A DNA stretch of 64,000 bases from positions 1,984,001 to 2,048,000 of the forward strand of contig NC_013943.1 of the NCBI RefSeq assembly GCF_000025725.1. Direction: 5' to 3'. Of this stretch, positions 8,533-46,306 are shown piece by piece. Numbering within the stretch: position 1 is the stretch's first letter; each line of letters starts with the position of its first letter. The notes beneath the pieces were generated by a model. It was not told the DNA's origin, ran no database searches, and saw nothing but the letters and a program-made list of their open reading frames with translations. Source of the DNA: Denitrovibrio acetiphilus DSM 12809 (GTDB taxonomy: Bacteria > Chrysiogenota > Deferribacteres > Deferribacterales > Geovibrionaceae). The position numbers and the translations under genes are program-made.

Positions 8533-10818
8533 ATGAGCAATAAGGAGATCGAAAAGGCTCTGTCTCAAACACCGGATCTTACTAAAAATGCAATTACGGT
8601 TCTTGAAAAAAGATACCTTAAACGTGACATAAGCGGCAAACCAGTTGAAAAACCAATAGATATGTTCAGAAGAGTCGCATTGAATATCGCAGAAGCAGAT
8701 AAGAATTATGATAAAGATGCAGATATTTTATCCACTGCGACAGCATTTTACGAGCAAATGGCAGCTCTTAAGTTTCTTCCAAACTCCCCCACTCTTATGA
8801 ACGCAGGGCGTGAGCTTCAACAGCTCGCTGCCTGTTTTGTTCTCCCTGTGGATGATTCTTTGGAAGCAATTTTCGAAGCTGTTAAGAATACTGCCTTGAT
8901 TCATAAATCAGGCGGAGGTACAGGTTTTTCATTCTCCCGCCTAAGACCTAAAGATGACGTTGTAAAGACCACAAAAGGAGTCTCCAGCGGTCCTGTTTCT
9001 TTCATGACAGTATTTGATGCTGCCACTGAAACAATCAAGCAGGGGGGCACAAGACGCGGCGCCAACATGGGCATACTCCGAGTTGACCACCCAGATATCA
9101 TGGAATTCATCTACGCTAAAGAAGATAAAACAAAACTTACAAACTTTAACCTTTCAGTTGGTATAACAGAAAAATTCATGCAGGCAGTCCTAAACGACAC
9201 TGATTACGATCTGTATAACCCCAAAACCGGCAAAACAGCGGGTAAGCTGAAAGCTAAAGAAGTTTTCGACACTATGGTTCAGCTCGCATGGGAAGGCGGA
9301 GACCCGGGCATTGTCTACCTTGACAGGATCAATGCAGAAAACCCCACTCCCAAAGAGGGCGACATCGAAAGCACCAACCCTTGTGGCGAACAACCTCTTC
9401 TGCCATACGAATCATGCAACCTGGGTTCTATAAACCTTGGTAAATACGTAAAAGACGGCAAAATTGACTGGGAAGACCTCGAAAAAACAATAGAGGTCGC
9501 AGTTCATTTCCTCGACAACGTAATAGACATGAACAAATATCCTATTCAGCAGATCAACGATCAGACTAAGCGTAACCGCAAAATAGGTCTTGGTCTCATG
9601 GGCTGGGCGGATATGCTTGCGATGCTTGCCATCCCCTACAACACTGACGAAGCAACTGACCTCGCAGAAAAAGTTATGCAGTTTATAAGAGACAAAGGAC
9701 GTGAGAAGTCATCGGCTCTGGCTGTTATCAGAGGTGATTTTCCATCTTTTAAAGACAGCATTTACCCAAAAATGGGATTCAAAAACATGCGTAACGCAAC
9801 AATCACAACTATTGCTCCCACAGGAACAATCTCCATTATAGGTTCTTGTTCCAGCGGTATAGAGCCATATTTCGCAATTGCATTCTACAGGCAGGTGATG
9901 GATAACAATAAACTTGTCGAAGTCAGCCCTGTCTTTAAGGATATAGCCAAAAGAGAAGGTTTTCTCTCAGACGAACTCTTAGAAAAAGTCGCAGAAACAG
10001 GAACAGCACACGGACTGAGTATGGTTCCTGAAAAATGGCAGGAAGCTTTCGTAACATCCCATGAGATAACACCTTTCTGGCACACAAAAATGCAGGCGGC
10101 TTTTCAGAAATACACTGACAACGCAGTAAGCAAAACAGTTAATTTCCCTAATGAAGCGACTATTGAAGATGTTAAAAAAACATATCTTCTCTCTTACAAC
10201 CTTGGCTGTAAAGGGACAACAATATACAGAGACGGAAGCCGTACAGGGCAGGTGCTCAATGTCGGAACAAAAGAAAAAGAAGCTCAGCCGGAAGCAACAG
10301 CCGAATTCACACCAAAGCCAAGACCGAAAGTTCTCATAGGACGCACAGTTGAGATGATGACCGGCTGCGGAAAGCTCTATGTGACAATTAATCAGGATGA
10401 AAACGGTGTACCTTTCGAAGTGTTCACAAGCATGGGGAAAGCGGGCGGATGTGCACAGTCTCAATGTGAGGCTATAGGACGGCTTATATCCATAGACCTG
10501 CGCAGCGGCGGAAACCTCGACAGGATCATCAAACAGCTCAAGGGGATAAGCTGCCATATGCGCTATGGTTTTGGACCTAACACCGTACTCAGCTGCTCTG
10601 ACGCTGTGGGTAAAGCCCTTGAACAGGCAACAAAAAGCCCCACAGAAATACTGGTTAGTAAAACAGACGACAACCTTACAGTTGATAAGCTTCTGTCAGA
10701 TTTTGACAGCAGCGATACTGTGGTGAAAAATGGGGCATGTCCTGATTGCGGGGGACCCGTAGAACACGTTGAGGGTTGCGATATTTGCTACTCTTGCGGT
10801 TACTCACACTGTAGCTGA
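8533..10818 (+). CDS. nrdJ: Adenosylcobalamin-dependent (class II) ribonucleotide reductase
   Basis: This 761-residue class II enzyme reduces ribonucleotides using adenosylcobalamin as radical source and so works with or without oxygen. The catalytic barrel shows NSPTLMNAG, the redox cysteine in LAACF, HKSGGGTGFSFSRLRP, NPCGEQPLL and ESCNLGS. No ATP-cone domain is present at the N-terminus. The C-terminal part carries the TSCPD region (VFTSMGKAGGC) and ends with a cysteine-rich tail (CPDCGG, CDICYSCGYSHC) for re-reduction. CGGAGG precedes ATG by 6 bases. A B12-independent class III enzyme is encoded at 42006-44906 under a cobalamin riboswitch, so the two reductases probably replace each other according to B12 supply. 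Confidence 0.96.
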   Translation: MSNKEIEKALSQTPDLTKNAITVLEKRYLKRDISGKPVEKPIDMFRRVALNIAEADKNYDKDADILSTATAFYEQMAALKFLPNSPTLMNAGRELQQLAACFVLPVDDSLEAIFEAVKNTALIHKSGGGTGFSFSRLRPKDDVVKTTKGVSSGPVSFMTVFDAATETIKQGGTRRGANMGILRVDHPDIMEFIYAKEDKTKLTNFNLSVGITEKFMQAVLNDTDYDLYNPKTGKTAGKLKAKEVFDTMVQLAWEGGDPGIVYLDRINAENPTPKEGDIESTNPCGEQPLLPYESCNLGSINLGKYVKDGKIDWEDLEKTIEVAVHFLDNVIDMNKYPIQQINDQTKRNRKIGLGLMGWADMLAMLAIPYNTDEATDLAEKVMQFIRDKGREKSSALAVIRGDFPSFKDSIYPKMGFKNMRNATITTIAPTGTISIIGSCSSGIEPYFAIAFYRQVMDNNKLVEVSPVFKDIAKREGFLSDELLEKVAETGTAHGLSMVPEKWQEAFVTSHEITPFWHTKMQAAFQKYTDNAVSKTVNFPNEATIEDVKKTYLLSYNLGCKGTTIYRDGSRTGQVLNVGTKEKEAQPEATAEFTPKPRPKVLIGRTVEMMTGCGKLYVTINQDENGVPFEVFTSMGKAGGCAQSQCEAIGRLISIDLRSGGNLDRIIKQLKGISCHMRYGFGPNTVLSCSDAVGKALEQATKSPTEILVSKTDDNLTVDKLLSDFDSSDTVVKNGACPDCGGPVEHVEGCDICYSCGYSHCS

Positions 10819-39627: not shown

Positions 39628-39810
39628 AAAAAACCCCCGCAGACGCCGTCGATATAGTCCAATTGTAGCCCTTTTATAAGGGCGGAGGAATCACGAGTAC
39701 TTTAGGCTCCCTGCTCAAGGCAGGTTTGCACACCATACAAAGTATCATCCCCCGGTCTTGGAGTGTTGGCTCCAATTTTCCTATATCATCACGAACGCCG
39801 CAGGGGTAGT
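39628..39810 (-). ncRNA. ssrS: 6S RNA
   Basis: The minus-strand RNA of about 180 nt folds into one long interrupted hairpin. The closing stem CCCCTGCGGCGTT pairs with the 3' segment GGCGTCTGCGGGG through wobbles and a single bulged base. GATATAG pairs with CTATATC further in, around an unpaired centre that mimics an open promoter. The 5' ...TGCGGCGTTCGTG and 3' ...GGCG elements match the ends of known 6S RNAs. A six-T run (39628-39633) after GGGGG gives a terminator. Position just after zapA and near ygfA agrees with the classic zapA-ssrS-ygfA order, with rarA inserted. A second small hairpin (39601-39620) follows before rarA. Confidence 0.85.
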
Positions 39811-41804: not shown

Positions 41805-42020
41805 ATGAATAAACTATTCACGGCATTAGGAATCGCAGTGCTCGCTCTGCTCTTTTACAGAGTAACGAAGGGCACTGTGACCCGTGTCGTGCACATGATG
41901 CACCAGCGGGATATCAGAAAAACTCAGCGCCCGTCCCCAGTCAGAGACAAATGGTTTGCTATATGGCTTCCAATCATAATTTTTATTGGTATTTTCCTGC
42001 TACTGTTAACTGTCAAATGA
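41805..42020 (+). CDS. Small membrane protein of unknown function
   Basis: The 71-residue protein has two membrane helices, at about 3-20 (LFTALGIAVLALLFYRV) and 48-68 (WFAIWLPIIIFIGIFLLLL), joined by a basic, histidine-containing loop. ATG follows the TPR stop codon at once, so the two are probably translated together and may act together. I recognise no family. Its 3' end overlaps the convergent nrdG by 15 bases. Confidence 0.65.
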   Translation: MNKLFTALGIAVLALLFYRVTKGTVTRVVHMMHQRDIRKTQRPSPVRDKWFAIWLPIIIFIGIFLLLLTVK

Positions 42021-42695
42021 ATTACGGTACTTAACATCATATTTATCGAACATTGCTCTTATTAAGGCGTGTTCATCAGGAGAAAGGGATATATCAAATC
42101 GTTTATCCAGCCACCTTCCATTGCGGACAGGAAACTGAACAACCAGCCCCGCATCGCTCAGACCAGACACCACACTTTTAACATCATCTTCATCAGGAAC
42201 CTTCCAGAGTGTATGCCTCACCTCAAAACCAACCTTATGCTCACGCAGGACGTCTATTGTTTTGATAAATTTATCAATACCGTAGTTACTGCGGGTTATC
42301 TCTTTAACATCAGAATCGTTAAACGCCTTAAGATCAACAGAAACAAAATCCGCCAGCCCTTCACCGCAGACTCTTTCCAGCCTACCGGGATAACTGCCGT
42401 TTGTATCAAGCTTCACAAGGAAACCACGATCTTTCAGCGTCCGCAGAAATTCCGGCATATCTGGTAAAAAAAGGGGTTCACCGCCTGACACGGCAACCCC
42501 TTCGATATCTTTCCCTTCCAGACTGCTGAGGAATTCCTCAAGCCTGTTCTCTCCCAGAGCGCTGTTGACCAGTTCAGGATTGTGGCAATATCTGCATCGG
42601 AGGTTACACCCATTAAAGAATGCAACAGAAGATATCACCCCCGGATAATCAATCAGGCTCACAGGGATGAAGTTACTCAAAAATAGATCAGTCAT
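42006..42695 (-). CDS. nrdG: Anaerobic ribonucleoside-triphosphate reductase activating enzyme (NrdG)
   Basis: The 229-residue radical SAM activase installs the glycyl radical on class III ribonucleotide reductase. The cluster motif CNLRCRYCHNPELV (C-X3-C-X2-C) is near residue 30 and VSGGEPLF near 75, as in the longer NrdG/PflA-type activases. ATG 42695 is chosen; the frame runs up to a TTG at 42731 inside the small glycyl-radical gene. Its start lies one base after that gene's stop (TAATATG), so activase and substrate domain are tightly linked. Confidence 0.9.
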   Translation of the reverse strand: MTDLFLSNFIPVSLIDYPGVISSVAFFNGCNLRCRYCHNPELVNSALGENRLEEFLSSLEGKDIEGVAVSGGEPLFLPDMPEFLRTLKDRGFLVKLDTNGSYPGRLERVCGEGLADFVSVDLKAFNDSDVKEITRSNYGIDKFIKTIDVLREHKVGFEVRHTLWKVPDEDDVKSVVSGLSDAGLVVQFPVRNGRWLDKRFDISLSPDEHALIRAMFDKYDVKYRNSFDS

Positions 42696-42696
42696 A

Positions 42697-42867
42697 TTAT
42701 TTCTGGATATCAAAAGTCTCTCTGTGAACAAATTCTTCTTTTTTACCTTTGTTCCAGTGGCTTGTAGGGCTGTGATATCCTACAACGCGGCTGTACACTT
42801 CACACTCTTCACCTTTAACATCCTTAAGTTCTTCTCTCAGTGCATCAATTCTTTCAGCATTACTCAT
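42697..42867 (-). CDS. Separate glycyl-radical domain of class III ribonucleotide reductase
   Basis: This 56-residue gene carries the motif YSRVVGYHSPTSHWNKGKKEEF. In ordinary NrdD this motif is the extreme C-terminus, and the glycine of RVVGY becomes the catalytic radical. Here it follows a helical leader (MSNAERIDALREELKDVKG). GGAGG lies seven bases before ATG 42867, and the upstream NrdD stops at 42870-42872, so the gene is properly equipped for translation and is not a sequencing slip. The product must join NrdD in trans, as the spare-part protein GrcA/YfiD does for pyruvate formate-lyase. Confidence 0.88.
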   Translation of the reverse strand: MSNAERIDALREELKDVKGEECEVYSRVVGYHSPTSHWNKGKKEEFVHRETFDIQK

Positions 42868-42869
42868 AA

Positions 42870-44906
42870 TCATACCTCCATAGTGGTTTCGAGTTCACGG
42901 ATCTCCGCCTCTATACTGTTTCTTTTCTCTTCAGCACAGTGCGGGCAGTTTTTATGTTCACCCTTTATGTAGCCATGCACCGGACAAACGGAAAATGTCG
43001 GAGTGATAGTTACATAAGGGATAGCGTATTCGTTAGTTATCTTCTGCAAAAGTCTGTTTACAGTGCTGTAGTCATCCACCGCTTCACCGAGAAAAACGTG
43101 AAATACCGTCCCTCCGGTATAGAGCGTCTGGAGCTGATCCTGATGTTTCAGGGCTTTAAAAAGCTCCCTTGTTTTCTCAACGGGGATCTGTGTCGAATTT
43201 GTATAATACGGGTTCTCAGCAGAACCTGAAGTTATTATACCCGGCAGATCTTTTGCGTCCTTCTTCGCCAGTCTATAGGATGTTCCTTCAGCCGGAGTGG
43301 CCTCAAGATTATAAAGCATGTCGTCTTCTTCCTGAAACTCACCAAGCTTATCACGCATGAAGTTGAGTATTTTTACTGCGTACTCCAACCCGTCCTTATG
43401 CATAATGTCAACGCCTATAAAGTTTTGCAAAGCCTCATTCATGCCTATTATACCTATAGTGTTAAAGTGATTTTTCCAATACTGACCAAATCTTTCCTTG
43501 ATAGCAGACAGATAGTATCTTGCGTAAGGATAAAGACCGTTGTCGGTCAACTTTTCAAGGATTCTTCTTTTAACACGAAGGCTTTCTCTGCCTAGCTGCA
43601 TAAGACTTTCCAGCTTCGCAAAAAAATCAGCTTCATTTTCAGCACTATAGCCCATTCTAGGCAGATTTATCGTGACTACGCCAATGGAACCGGTAAGGGG
43701 GTTCGCACCGAAAAGACCGCCTCCACGTTTACGCAGTTCTCTGTTGTCAAGCCTCAGACGACAGCACATGCTTCTTGCATCATCCGGACTCATATCGCTG
43801 TTCACAAAGTTTGCAAAGTAAGGAATACCATATTTTGCAGTAACTTCCATGATTTTATCTACGATCTCATGTTCCCACTGAAAGTCTTTTGAAACATTAT
43901 AAGTCGGGATCGGGAAGGTGAAGATACGTCCTTTGGCATCGCCTTCAATCATAACTTCTATGAAAGCTTTGTTCAGCATGAACATCTCTTCCTGGAAATC
44001 ATTATAAGTTTCAGCCTGCGGTACACCGCCGATGATAACCGACTCATCTCTATATGTTTTAGGTACAAACAGATCAAGGGTCAGGTTCGTGAATGGTGTC
44101 TGAAAGCCAACTCTTGTAGGAACATTAATATTAAAAATAAATTCCTGAAGAGCTTGCTTGACGTCTTTGTAACTAAGTTTGTCGTAAGCGATAAACGGGG
44201 CAAGCAGTGTGTCAAAGCTTGAAAAAGCCTGAGCACCCGCAGCCTCACCCTGCAGTGTATAAAAGAAATTTACTATCTGCCCGAGAGCAGAACGAAAGTG
44301 TTTCGGAGGTGCACTCTCAACCTTCCCTGCAACCCCTCGGAATCCCCTGACTAAAAGGTCTTTCAGATCCCATCCACAGCAGTACACCGCCAGCAGACCG
44401 AGGTCATGAATATGCATATCGCCGTTCACATGTGCATCAGCAATATTTTTCGGATAAATTTTGTTCAGCCAGTATTTCGCTGTAACGGTTGAGGATATAT
44501 AATTATTTAAACCTTGTAATGCATAGGTAGTATTGCTATTTTCATTTATACGCCAATCTTCGCCGCCAAGATATTCCTCAACGATAGACTCAAAGCCTGT
44601 AAGAGTGTCTTTGATATCGCGAATGTCTGAACGCTGTTTTCTGTATATAATATAAGCCTTTGCAGTTCTAGCATGTCCGTTTTCGATGAGGATTTTTTCA
44701 ACAGTATCCTGTATCTCCTCCACAGAGCATGTGCCGTATTTTCCGTAAGAATCTATCAGCTCACGGCAAACCTTTATAGACAGTTCCGACGATGTGTTCC
44801 TGTCTGTCCCGCCCACGGATGAAGCAGCTTTAAAAATAGCATTTGCAACCCGCTCCTGGTCGAAAGCAACAAACCTGCCGTCCCGTTTCATAACTTTTTC
44901 AATCAT
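42870..44906 (-). CDS. nrdD: Anaerobic (class III) ribonucleoside-triphosphate reductase, catalytic subunit lacking the glycyl-radical site
   Basis: The 678-residue protein begins with an ATP-cone (KVMKRDGRFVAFDQERVANAI, about 1-90), followed by the ten-stranded barrel. Near the end it has the zinc site CPVHGYIKGEHKNCPHC, which in other NrdDs lies just before the glycyl-radical motif. This protein stops 21 residues later (RELETTMEV) with no RVxGY; that motif is encoded by the next gene. ATG 44906 with GGAGG ten bases upstream is preferred to GTG 44915. A cobalamin riboswitch precedes it. The enzyme makes dNTPs under strict anoxia without B12. Confidence 0.94.
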   Translation of the reverse strand: MIEKVMKRDGRFVAFDQERVANAIFKAASSVGGTDRNTSSELSIKVCRELIDSYGKYGTCSVEEIQDTVEKILIENGHARTAKAYIIYRKQRSDIRDIKDTLTGFESIVEEYLGGEDWRINENSNTTYALQGLNNYISSTVTAKYWLNKIYPKNIADAHVNGDMHIHDLGLLAVYCCGWDLKDLLVRGFRGVAGKVESAPPKHFRSALGQIVNFFYTLQGEAAGAQAFSSFDTLLAPFIAYDKLSYKDVKQALQEFIFNINVPTRVGFQTPFTNLTLDLFVPKTYRDESVIIGGVPQAETYNDFQEEMFMLNKAFIEVMIEGDAKGRIFTFPIPTYNVSKDFQWEHEIVDKIMEVTAKYGIPYFANFVNSDMSPDDARSMCCRLRLDNRELRKRGGGLFGANPLTGSIGVVTINLPRMGYSAENEADFFAKLESLMQLGRESLRVKRRILEKLTDNGLYPYARYYLSAIKERFGQYWKNHFNTIGIIGMNEALQNFIGVDIMHKDGLEYAVKILNFMRDKLGEFQEEDDMLYNLEATPAEGTSYRLAKKDAKDLPGIITSGSAENPYYTNSTQIPVEKTRELFKALKHQDQLQTLYTGGTVFHVFLGEAVDDYSTVNRLLQKITNEYAIPYVTITPTFSVCPVHGYIKGEHKNCPHCAEEKRNSIEAEIRELETTMEV

Positions 44907-45060
44907 GTGTGTCACACCTCCAAATGTGCGCAGTCATACTGTCAGAATAAAGCGAAGCATCTTAAATAACTAGATAGTTCCGTAGCGAATATACTTTTAG
45001 AGGGGGTATATATACAGCAAGATTACTGAGCACAAGCGCAACTATAAGTATTAAGAAGAT

Positions 45061-45095
45061 AAAATTATGGATTGAGTAATGATAAGCTCATCCAT
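45061..45095 (-). terminator. Candidate attenuator hairpin between the cobalamin riboswitch and nrdD
   Basis: Minus-strand ATGGATGAG pairs with CTCAATCCAT (one bulged A) around a 10-base loop at 45067-45095. AATTTTATCTTCTT follows. It sits ten bases after the riboswitch, where a terminator-type expression platform is expected. The T tract is imperfect. Confidence 0.5.
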
Positions 45096-45104
45096 CCCTC
45101 CGCT

Positions 45105-45258
45105 GGTATATTGCAGGTCAGGTATCCTGGCTTGCCGTCATCCTATTTGTCTTAACCTTCCCGCTTTCGCAGTGGTTTTCTGAACAAGACTTTCGTCAGG
45201 CTTACAGTTGCGGGGGCAGCGGCGGATTTTAACCGCACTTCCCTGAGTCCTACTTGGT
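45105..45258 (-). promoter_or_regulatory. Cobalamin (adenosylcobalamin) riboswitch controlling nrdD
   Basis: Read on the minus strand, the conserved elements occur in order: CAGGGAAGTGCGGT, AAAATCCGCCGCTGCCCCCGCAACTGTAA, CCACTG...CGGGAAGG (the B12 box region) and AGCCAGGATACCTGACC. All match the class I cobalamin aptamer, with correct spacing over about 150 nt. It lies 200 bases before nrdD, so B12 should turn off the B12-independent reductase while NrdJ is active. Confidence 0.95.
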
Positions 45259-45260
45259 AT

Positions 45261-45289
45261 ATTTTGATATGAATAAGTTCTGATGTCAA
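45261..45289 (-). promoter_or_regulatory. Promoter of the riboswitch-nrdD operon
   Basis: TTGACA (45284-45289), a 17-base spacer and CAAAAT (45261-45266) on the minus strand place transcription start near 45254, just at the 5' edge of the aptamer. The remaining bases of the 44907-45313 gap hold the riboswitch, the hairpin and the nrdD leader. Confidence 0.65.
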
Positions 45290-45313: not shown

Positions 45314-46306
45314 TTAATATCTTTTGAATAGTTCCAGCAATCGTTTAGACGCCGCGGATGGAGTTGTTGTGCCGTTTACGACAGCTTCCTGAATTTGCGG
45401 CAGCATTGCCTGAACATTCCTGCTGTTCTTAAACATATCTTTAAGGTTGTCCATAACCATTGTCCAGAGCCAGTCCACAGCTTGTTTTTTACGCTTATCC
45501 GCAAACTCTCCGCTTGCCGTCAGCTTACCCCTGTAGTCTTTTACCATGTCCCAAACCTCTGCGACTCCTTCGTTATAAAGGGCGCTTGCGAGTAGAACCG
45601 GCACTGTCCAGTTTTTTGATTTTGGGCGGAGGATGTGCAACGCATTCATGTATTGCCCTCTGGCAAGCTCTGCCTTCTGCCTGTTCTCCCCTTCTGCCTT
45701 GTTTATGACGATGGCGTCAGCAATTTCCATCACGCCTTTCTTGATCCCCTGTAGCTCATCCCCTGCATTTGCAAGCTGGAGAAGCATAAAAAAGTCCACC
45801 ATAGACGCAACAGTTATCTCAGACTGACCAACTCCAACTGTTTCAACCAATACCACATCATAACCGGCAGCTTCGCAGAGAAGCATTGTCTCCCTCGTCT
45901 TCTTCGCAACACCGCCAAGAGTGCTTCCGGCTGGAGACGGACGTATAAAAGCGTTTTTATCACGGGCGAGTTCTTCCATACGGGTTTTATCCCCCAAAAT
46001 AGAACCGCCTGTGATCTGGGAAGAAGGGTCTACGGCAAGCACAGCAACCTTGTGCCCCTTCGCAGTGAGGAGCTGGCCAAAAGCTTCTATGAAGGTTGAC
46101 TTGCCGACACCCGGCACACCGGAGATACCTATACGGACGGAATTACCGGTATAGGGCAGTATCTGATCAAGTAGCTTCGCAGCATAATCCTGATGGTCGG
46201 GGTTGGAGCTTTCTATAAGCGTGATTGCACGGGACAACGGACGAAGATGCCCTTCTACAAGTCCCTTTGCGAGTTTGTCTGTATCCATAGCACCTGATGA
46301 AGCCAT
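45314..46306 (-). CDS. meaB: Methylmalonyl-CoA mutase-associated GTPase MeaB
   Basis: The G3E-family GTPase (about 330 residues) protects the mutase and gates delivery of adenosylcobalamin. RIGISGVPGVGKSTFIEAFG is Walker A near residue 55, VLAVDPSSQITGGSILGDKTRM follows, and VLVETVGVGQSE and VINKAEGENR complete the GTPase motifs. The start is uncertain: ATG 46306, ATG 46288 (AGGTG two bases upstream) and TTG 46315 are all possible. The family N-terminus (DTDKLAKGLVEG) fits 46288 or 46306. A terminator lies between it and the mutase gene. Confidence 0.93.
   Translation of the reverse strand: MASSGAMDTDKLAKGLVEGHLRPLSRAITLIESSNPDHQDYAAKLLDQILPYTGNSVRIGISGVPGVGKSTFIEAFGQLLTAKGHKVAVLAVDPSSQITGGSILGDKTRMEELARDKNAFIRPSPAGSTLGGVAKKTRETMLLCEAAGYDVVLVETVGVGQSEITVASMVDFFMLLQLANAGDELQGIKKGVMEIADAIVINKAEGENRQKAELARGQYMNALHILRPKSKNWTVPVLLASALYNEGVAEVWDMVKDYRGKLTASGEFADKRKKQAVDWLWTMVMDNLKDMFKNSRNVQAMLPQIQEAVVNGTTTPSAASKRLLELFKRY

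Follow-up and report, generated by a model that had tools for sequence, protein, structure and literature searches.

Upstream of the class III ribonucleotide reductase operon of Denitrovibrio acetiphilus DSM 12809 lies a cobalamin riboswitch whose expression platform contains a mini-ORF of eight codons, with loop L13 of the riboswitch serving as the Shine-Dalgarno (SD) sequence of this mini-ORF. We think it probable that the element is a B12 OFF-switch on nrdD, the adjoining glycyl-radical ORF and nrdG, and that it would act through this dual use of L13. The regulated ribosome site appears to be that of the mini-ORF rather than that of nrdD, and the platform around it had been overlooked by the first-pass annotation of this DNA. 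This platform is the new part of the system, whereas B12 silencing of nrdDG in organisms that possess NrdJ is already known. Its anatomy is well supported by the sequence comparisons described below; as a mechanism, it is putative.

The window analyzed here is a stretch of 64,000 nucleotides, and its relevant features are collected in Table 1. A cmscan search of the window matched the Rfam cobalamin model RF00174 between meaB (stop codon at 45314) and nrdD, covering the full model (positions 1 to 189 of 189) with 81.8 bits versus a gathering score of 31.5, which is far beyond chance. The aptamer carries the B12 box AGCCAGGA as well as a kissing loop, L5-L13, which connects it to the expression platform. 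The claim of a complete B12 aptamer was thus borne out end to end, and the span given for the whole region, 44907-45289, is correct in that it runs from the TTGACA hexamer to the nrdD start. The B12-dependent reductase gene nrdJ had been said to have no such element, and this also held: genome-wide (a single contig of 3,222,077 bp), RF00174 was found at only three places, namely nrdD, metE and the cbiK/cbi operon, and a permissive RNA-family scan of the nrdJ leader returned no match.

Table 1. Features of the nrdD region and of nrdJ, in window coordinates.
Feature	Position	Strand	Evidence
TTGACA, possible -35 box	45284..45289	-	sequence; promoter-like pair within chance
CAAAAT, weak possible -10 box	45261..45266	-	promoter scan
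Cobalamin riboswitch aptamer (RF00174)	45100..45267	-	Rfam cmscan, 81.8 bits, E 1.3e-18
L5 loop CCCCCG, kissing-loop partner within the aptamer	45211..45216	-	L5-L13 pairing analysis
B12 box and 3' strand of closing stem, AGCCAGGATACCTGACC	45116..45132	-	sequence, Rfam match
P13 hairpin, CCAG-CGGAGGG-ATGG	45092..45106	-	P13 covariation
L13 loop of P13	45102-45096	-	complementary to L5, A bulged
GGAGG, SD of mini-ORF, inside L13	45097..45101	-	sequence
Mini-ORF ATGAGCTTATCATTACTCAATCCATAA (MSLSLLNP*), 8 codons	45065..45091	-	SD in L13, ATG 45091
Hairpin ATGGATGAG...CTCAATCCAT, then AATTTTATCTT; weak terminator candidate or P13 alternative	45067..45095	-	folding
CCTCTAAA, possible anti-SD to TTTGGAGG before nrdD	44996..45003	-	8 pairs in MFE fold
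GGAGG, SD of nrdD	44917..44921	-	sequence
nrdD, class III reductase catalytic chain without glycyl-radical segment	42870..44906	-	NCBIfam PRK08270 1035.9 bits, TIGR02487, PF13597
58-aa glycyl-radical ORF (SRVVGY), second NrdD piece	42697..42873	-	PF13597 positions 531-562, 34.3 bits
nrdG, activase (NrdG2)	42006..42695	-	TIGR02495 150.6 bits, above cut-off
nrdJ-type B12-dependent reductase, no riboswitch	8533..10818	+	PF02867 454.9 bits; leader without RNA family

The association of switch and gene extends well beyond this genome. In a scan of 51 genomes of the phylum Deferribacterota, an nrdD of this type with a readable leader was present in 23, counting this genome and outgroup family f10, and in all 23 the switch immediately precedes the gene and shares its strand. 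Two genomes of genus g11 (G031 and G032; loci L088 and L089) possess a divergent NrdD of ~23% identity and no B12 switch; a class I/II large subunit was detected in neither of these assemblies, both of which are incomplete. The switch appears to track whichever reductase is B12-independent, because in genomes of genus g15, where nrdD is missing, the element stands before a class I nrdB (PF00268) and nrdA, the latter for a class I-type large subunit. A parallel to this nrdB-nrdA arrangement comes from Streptomyces, whose nrdABS genes are reportedly controlled by a coenzyme-B12 riboswitch (Borovok et al., 2006, as cited in PMC8620254); there, too, a B12 switch sits on a B12-independent reductase, which is of class Ia in Streptomyces and of class III here. 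Outside the phylum, the element was detected at 9 of 77 related nrdD loci, belonging to Desulfurellales, Nitrospirota, Halanaerobium, Elusimicrobiota and one Bacillota MAG. In a set of comparison genomes, a simple B12-box finder missed about half of the switches, and we therefore claim no frequency outside Deferribacterota.

In this phylum-wide conservation we see added strength for the best reading of the locus, a predicted B12 OFF-switch for nrdD-nrdG where NrdJ is encoded as well. Its OFF direction rests on the known behavior of the riboswitch family, elements of which are OFF switches as described for M. tuberculosis (PMC11260477) and in the account of B12-elements in PMC545781. That the element should instead be an ON switch, or have no function, is hardly credible, given that aptamer core and kissing loop are intact and that it has been retained throughout the phylum before B12-independent isozymes and B12 genes.

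Pairing between L5 and L13 is a general property of these switches. Considering the 92 switches of the phylum with a readable L5, we observed a Watson-Crick partner of 5 to 6 bp with at most one bulge in 88, as compared to 9.4 for shuffled platforms. The two loops compensate for each other in several types (L5/L13: CCCCCG/CGGAGGG, UCCCCG/CGGAGGA, UCCCG/CGNGGA, UCGCG/CGCCGA, CUCAAG/CUUGAG, CCCAG/CUAGGG and UACCCG/CCGGGUA). Similarly, the hairpin P13 that presents L13 covaries in platforms of the nrdD/nrdBA type, with a value of 0.502 versus 0.160 after shuffling (reached in 0 of 500 shuffles; best slid control, 0.245) and 87.5% of its cells paired. On its own, P13 is weak in this genome, with -2 kcal/mol and a G.A mismatch. 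As for the ribosome site, L13 itself is the SD sequence in nrdD and nrdBA leaders, reading CGGAGGG or CGGAGGA; in several leaders of uptake receptors and cbiM, targets which we named by sequence and not by family scans, P13 (CCUUA-CGAGGA-UAAGG) supplies the SD, AAGGAGG, with its 3' arm.

What follows this SD is a very short reading frame distinct from the target gene, and its peptide is not conserved across genera. The nearest relative, a congener, has MSISLLNP* in the place of the mini-ORF listed in Table 1; nrdBA leaders encode MRYNSI*, MCVYSY* and MVYSYS*, and other leaders MRFYPS*, MCYPFT*, MIRDPV* and MVFFNSS*. Mini-ORFs also occur behind the switch outside the phylum, as MIIPITL* and MSVFFACDYNTS* in Desulfurellales and as MRYDTS* and MLLSDFRIFSFYPP* in one Nitrospirota MAG. 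The target gene begins ~40-160 nt beyond the mini-ORF, mostly with an SD of its own.

Start position and length of the frame are constrained nonetheless. Using one representative per genus and target, we found that 20 of the 21 genus-by-target groups have an ATG or GTG 4 to 10 nt past the SD core (2.9 on average under the null, with 9 the highest of 5000); among 18 groups, none has a mini-ORF shorter than six codons (5.2 expected), and in 10 it measures six to eight codons (2.3 expected; reached in 0 of 5000 nulls), although the groups share ancestry and these null comparisons overstate their independence somewhat. Exceptions among the nrdD leaders are L086, without such an SD, and L085, with only a TTG. 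Elsewhere in the phylum, genes of ~490 codons are driven directly by the SD at the corresponding position, which is therefore a working, switch-controlled ribosome site. Together, the start-position and length statistics support translation of the mini-ORF. A separate observation concerns genus g15 (L153, L154, L155, L115, L137 and L140), where a divergent intergenic region holds two cobalamin switches back to back with ~20-40 nt between them; one directly drives a ~490-aa gene, the other acts via a mini-ORF of 18 to 19 codons.

These constraints bear on the possibility that B12 controls nrdD translation directly. Upon B12 binding, the leader downstream of P13 would then refold and bring CCUCUAAA (45003-44996) into pairing with UUUGGAGG ahead of nrdD; the GGAGG of L13 would be kept for kissing only, and the ATG behind it would be incidental. 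Eight pairs between anti-SD and SD are indeed possible, and the GGAGG in L13 is constrained by its pairing with L5. However, the MFE fold that holds the anti-SD is no better than those of shuffled sequences, and direct control leaves unexplained why starts fall 4 to 10 nt past the SD in nearly all groups despite varied spacers, why the shortest mini-ORFs are missing and why the equivalent site drives long genes elsewhere. We consider it unlikely.

Control through the mini-ORF, the reading we favor, would proceed as follows. With B12 coenzyme plentiful, the aptamer would fold and L5 (CCCCCG) would kiss L13 (CGGAGGG) on P13. Locking of L13 would hide the mini-ORF SD and bar ribosomes from the leader, and expression of nrdD, the glycyl-radical ORF and nrdG would fall once the leader is untranslated. 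When B12 is short, P13 would open, the mini-ORF would be translated, and nrdD would be made in place of NrdJ.

The weak step of this mechanism is the link from the mini-ORF to nrdD. In this genome, the mini-ORF stop codon lies 158 nt ahead of nrdD, which has a separate SD, and this distance is too far for simple reinitiation. Most likely, Rho would terminate transcription on a leader left without ribosomes, or the distant nrdD SD would be masked, or both. The genome does encode rho, and Rho acting on an untranslated leader may be a common denominator across lineages. As to the SD, folding calculations predict that in genus g4 a ribosome occupying the upstream ORF frees the main SD to a large extent, relieving 12-19 kcal/mol; there, the overlapping frame crosses the SD-masking hairpin, and in four g4 genomes the upstream frame overlaps the nrdD start. 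Unmasking is noticeable in f10, g2 and some others, and is absent in most lineages (mean z 0.38; this genome 0.2). A ribosome-opened hairpin over the main SD was rejected as a universal relay on the strength of this mean and of its absence from the present genome.

Another way to bypass the mini-ORF would be transcription attenuation: with B12 bound, the hairpin at 45095-45067 would form and polymerase would stop at AAUUUUAUCUU, leaving the mini-ORF without a role. This hairpin shares sequence with the mini-ORF as well as with the 3' arm of P13 and has a folding energy of ~-8 kcal/mol. It is followed here by a moderately U-rich tail, AATTTTATCTT, which leaves some room for termination, and by AAATTTTTAAC in the nearest relative; moreover, Halanaerobium nrdD leaders do have terminator-like hairpins with T-runs after the RF00174 aptamer. 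Against this stand an A/U-rich stem, a break in the tail, and shuffled sequences that fold equally well in 14 of 200 cases. A consensus terminator scan does not call the hairpin, either, and most nrdD leaders of Deferribacterota contain no convincing or comparable one, for which reason we discarded an intrinsic terminator as the general platform. Attenuation at this site strikes us as quite improbable.

Extending the mini-ORF reading beyond nrdD, we would give an even chance to the broader proposition that cobalamin switches in Deferribacterota, Desulfurellales and Nitrospirota commonly leave the ribosome site of the target alone and instead gate a mini-gene of 6 to 20 codons, translation of which would by itself permit expression of the gene behind it. 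Such a relay would have been kept over nrdD, nrdBA, B12-uptake receptors and cbiM; the peptide could vary, and selection would hold its minimum length and the strong SD.

Where transcription of the leader begins is less clear-cut than the first-pass annotation implied when it placed a TTGACA promoter ahead of the aptamer. The hexamer is present. Its sole -10 partner, CAAAAT at a spacer of 17 nt, is poor, and the pair is no better than chance, with one promoter-like pair found in the region versus 2.2 expected. It is plausible as a candidate promoter in that the implied transcription start, ~45254, adjoins the base at which the aptamer's closing stem begins (45253).

Transcripts might also enter from upstream. 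In this version of events, nrdD would be expressed mainly from a processed meaB transcript, and the switch would be an intra-operon attenuator that lets nrdD be expressed independently of the B12-dependent methylmalonyl-CoA mutase genes. Consistent with such read-through, the gap between the meaB stop and TTGACA is just 24 bases long, and a terminator scan found none apparent in it. Yet meaB adjoins the switch in this genome alone; it is 2.3 kb away in the nearest relative and more than 4 kb away or absent in the others. In addition, a strong terminator-like site stands between mutA and meaB. Read-through as the main source of nrdD mRNA is thus very unlikely in our view. Since the adjacency is private to this genome, the switch-nrdD unit is one that, judging from the comparison, works without meaB, and co-transcription with the methylmalonyl-CoA mutase genes was rejected as the reason for the switch. 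The mutA-meaB hairpin merits mention for its own sake: located at 46371-46347 on the minus strand, with 11 pairs, 6 of them G-C, and followed by TTTTTT, it sits inside an apparent single operon.

The two other RF00174 elements of the genome place nrdD in a wider context. One precedes metE, the gene of the B12-independent methionine synthase (PF01717/PF08267), and the other cbiK, which is adjoined by further cbi genes; cobS is also present in the genome. B12-independent isozymes and B12 synthesis would thereby form a coherent regulon under B12 control, a B12 economy regulon (metE, nrdD and cbi genes) in an anaerobe equipped with genes for B12 synthesis. Note that the metE switch (L101; genome positions 1710990-1711122) is a weaker match, with 41 bits, and has a different platform, GACTGTCTCGCG, of a type common to similar switches in genus g4.

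How does this system relate to known ones? The first-pass annotation held that the principle was known for other reductase pairs. This is true, and the exact pairing of NrdJ with a riboswitch-controlled nrdDG has itself been published: B12-elements ahead of nrdDG, where NrdJ is also encoded and with the same logic, are described for Desulfovibrio vulgaris and Desulfuromonas in a 2004 Genome Biol. paper (PMC545781), and a B12 riboswitch before nrdDG and nrdAB of Propionibacterium (Cutibacterium) acnes in a 2013 report (PMC3848588). A B12 riboswitch has also been reported before Chlorobium nrdD (PMC8620254). As in D. vulgaris, Desulfuromonas and P. acnes, the switch found here precedes class III nrdDG and NrdJ lacks the element; unlike the arrangements as described in the relevant passages of the two papers, the present nrdD is split, and between it and the switch lies a conserved mini-ORF. 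The earlier interpretation is thus partly supported, being mostly right though not new as stated. The nrdD switch by itself is a further case of the rule published in 2004, and the platform is the weightier result.

For the platform, the closest relatives are found in M. tuberculosis, where a B12 riboswitch gates a uORF required for expression of the downstream gene ppe2 (PMC11260477). As in ppe2, the upstream ORF has its SD within or next to L13, where the B12 switch would mask it. In contrast, the ppe2 uORF is long and overlaps the start (AUGA) of a gene without SD, whereas the mini-ORF described here has eight codons and stops well short of a gene with its own SD; among the relatives, overlap occurs only in some members of genus g4. 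The nrdD leader may thus work like the ppe2 arrangement but is not that arrangement, and, different from ppe2, its pattern is phylum-wide over several targets. A second M. tuberculosis riboswitch, the Mbox, gates a uORF coupled to Rho (PMC12810186); Mbox-pe20 resembles our case in that a riboswitch controls a small upstream ORF, there coupled to Rho termination, and differs in its Mg2+ aptamer, its targets and its uORF, which encodes a conserved protein where the peptide here varies among genera. We found no paper on such mini-ORFs in Deferribacterota in a limited literature search.

If confirmed, the platform would mean that a widespread riboswitch family relays its signal through a mini-gene in at least one whole phylum, with translation separating sensing from target. 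Target annotation would change as well, the first start codon past the aptamer not being that of the target. Finally, one could then test how translating six to eight codons determines what happens to an mRNA 40-160 nt further on.

Turning to the controlled genes, catalytic domain, glycyl-radical site and activase of a class III reductase are all found at the nrdD operon. The catalytic chain stops past the zinc motif, and the 58-aa ORF, overlapping its stop by 4 nt, supplies the remainder: PF13597 and TIGR02487 are covered by the two ORFs jointly, with NrdG2 next. The best start for nrdD is ATG 44906, with the SD GGAGG at 44921-44917; a longer nrdD from the upstream GTG 44915 was rejected, as the SD spacing supports the ATG instead. 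For nrdG, ATG 42695 is likelier than TTG 42731. A profile search of the genome returned one class I/II large subunit, nrdJ, and one nrdD only, and NrdR boxes near either gene were none above chance. Elsewhere in the window, a 6S RNA gene (RF00013, 76.5 bits) occupies 39630-39809 on the minus strand.

The split class III enzyme, which the first-pass annotation had singled out, is real, but it is not special. Every Deferribacterota nrdD examined with its 3' end (window 42697-44906; relatives L066-L085) is split, with a separate glycyl-radical ORF of ~55-75 aa, as are those of Desulfurellales (L168) and Halanaerobium (L189 and L230); NrdD of outgroup G001 is fused. A sequencing error, or a unique case, was dismissed on these grounds. 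In four archaea-binned relatives of NrdD (L182, L206, L209 and L224), the glycyl-radical segment (GGDTYGENEM / EVWSRVCGYLRP) lies in another frame, ~0-20 nt from the catalytic stop, which suggests an overlap, a frameshift or a very tight split.
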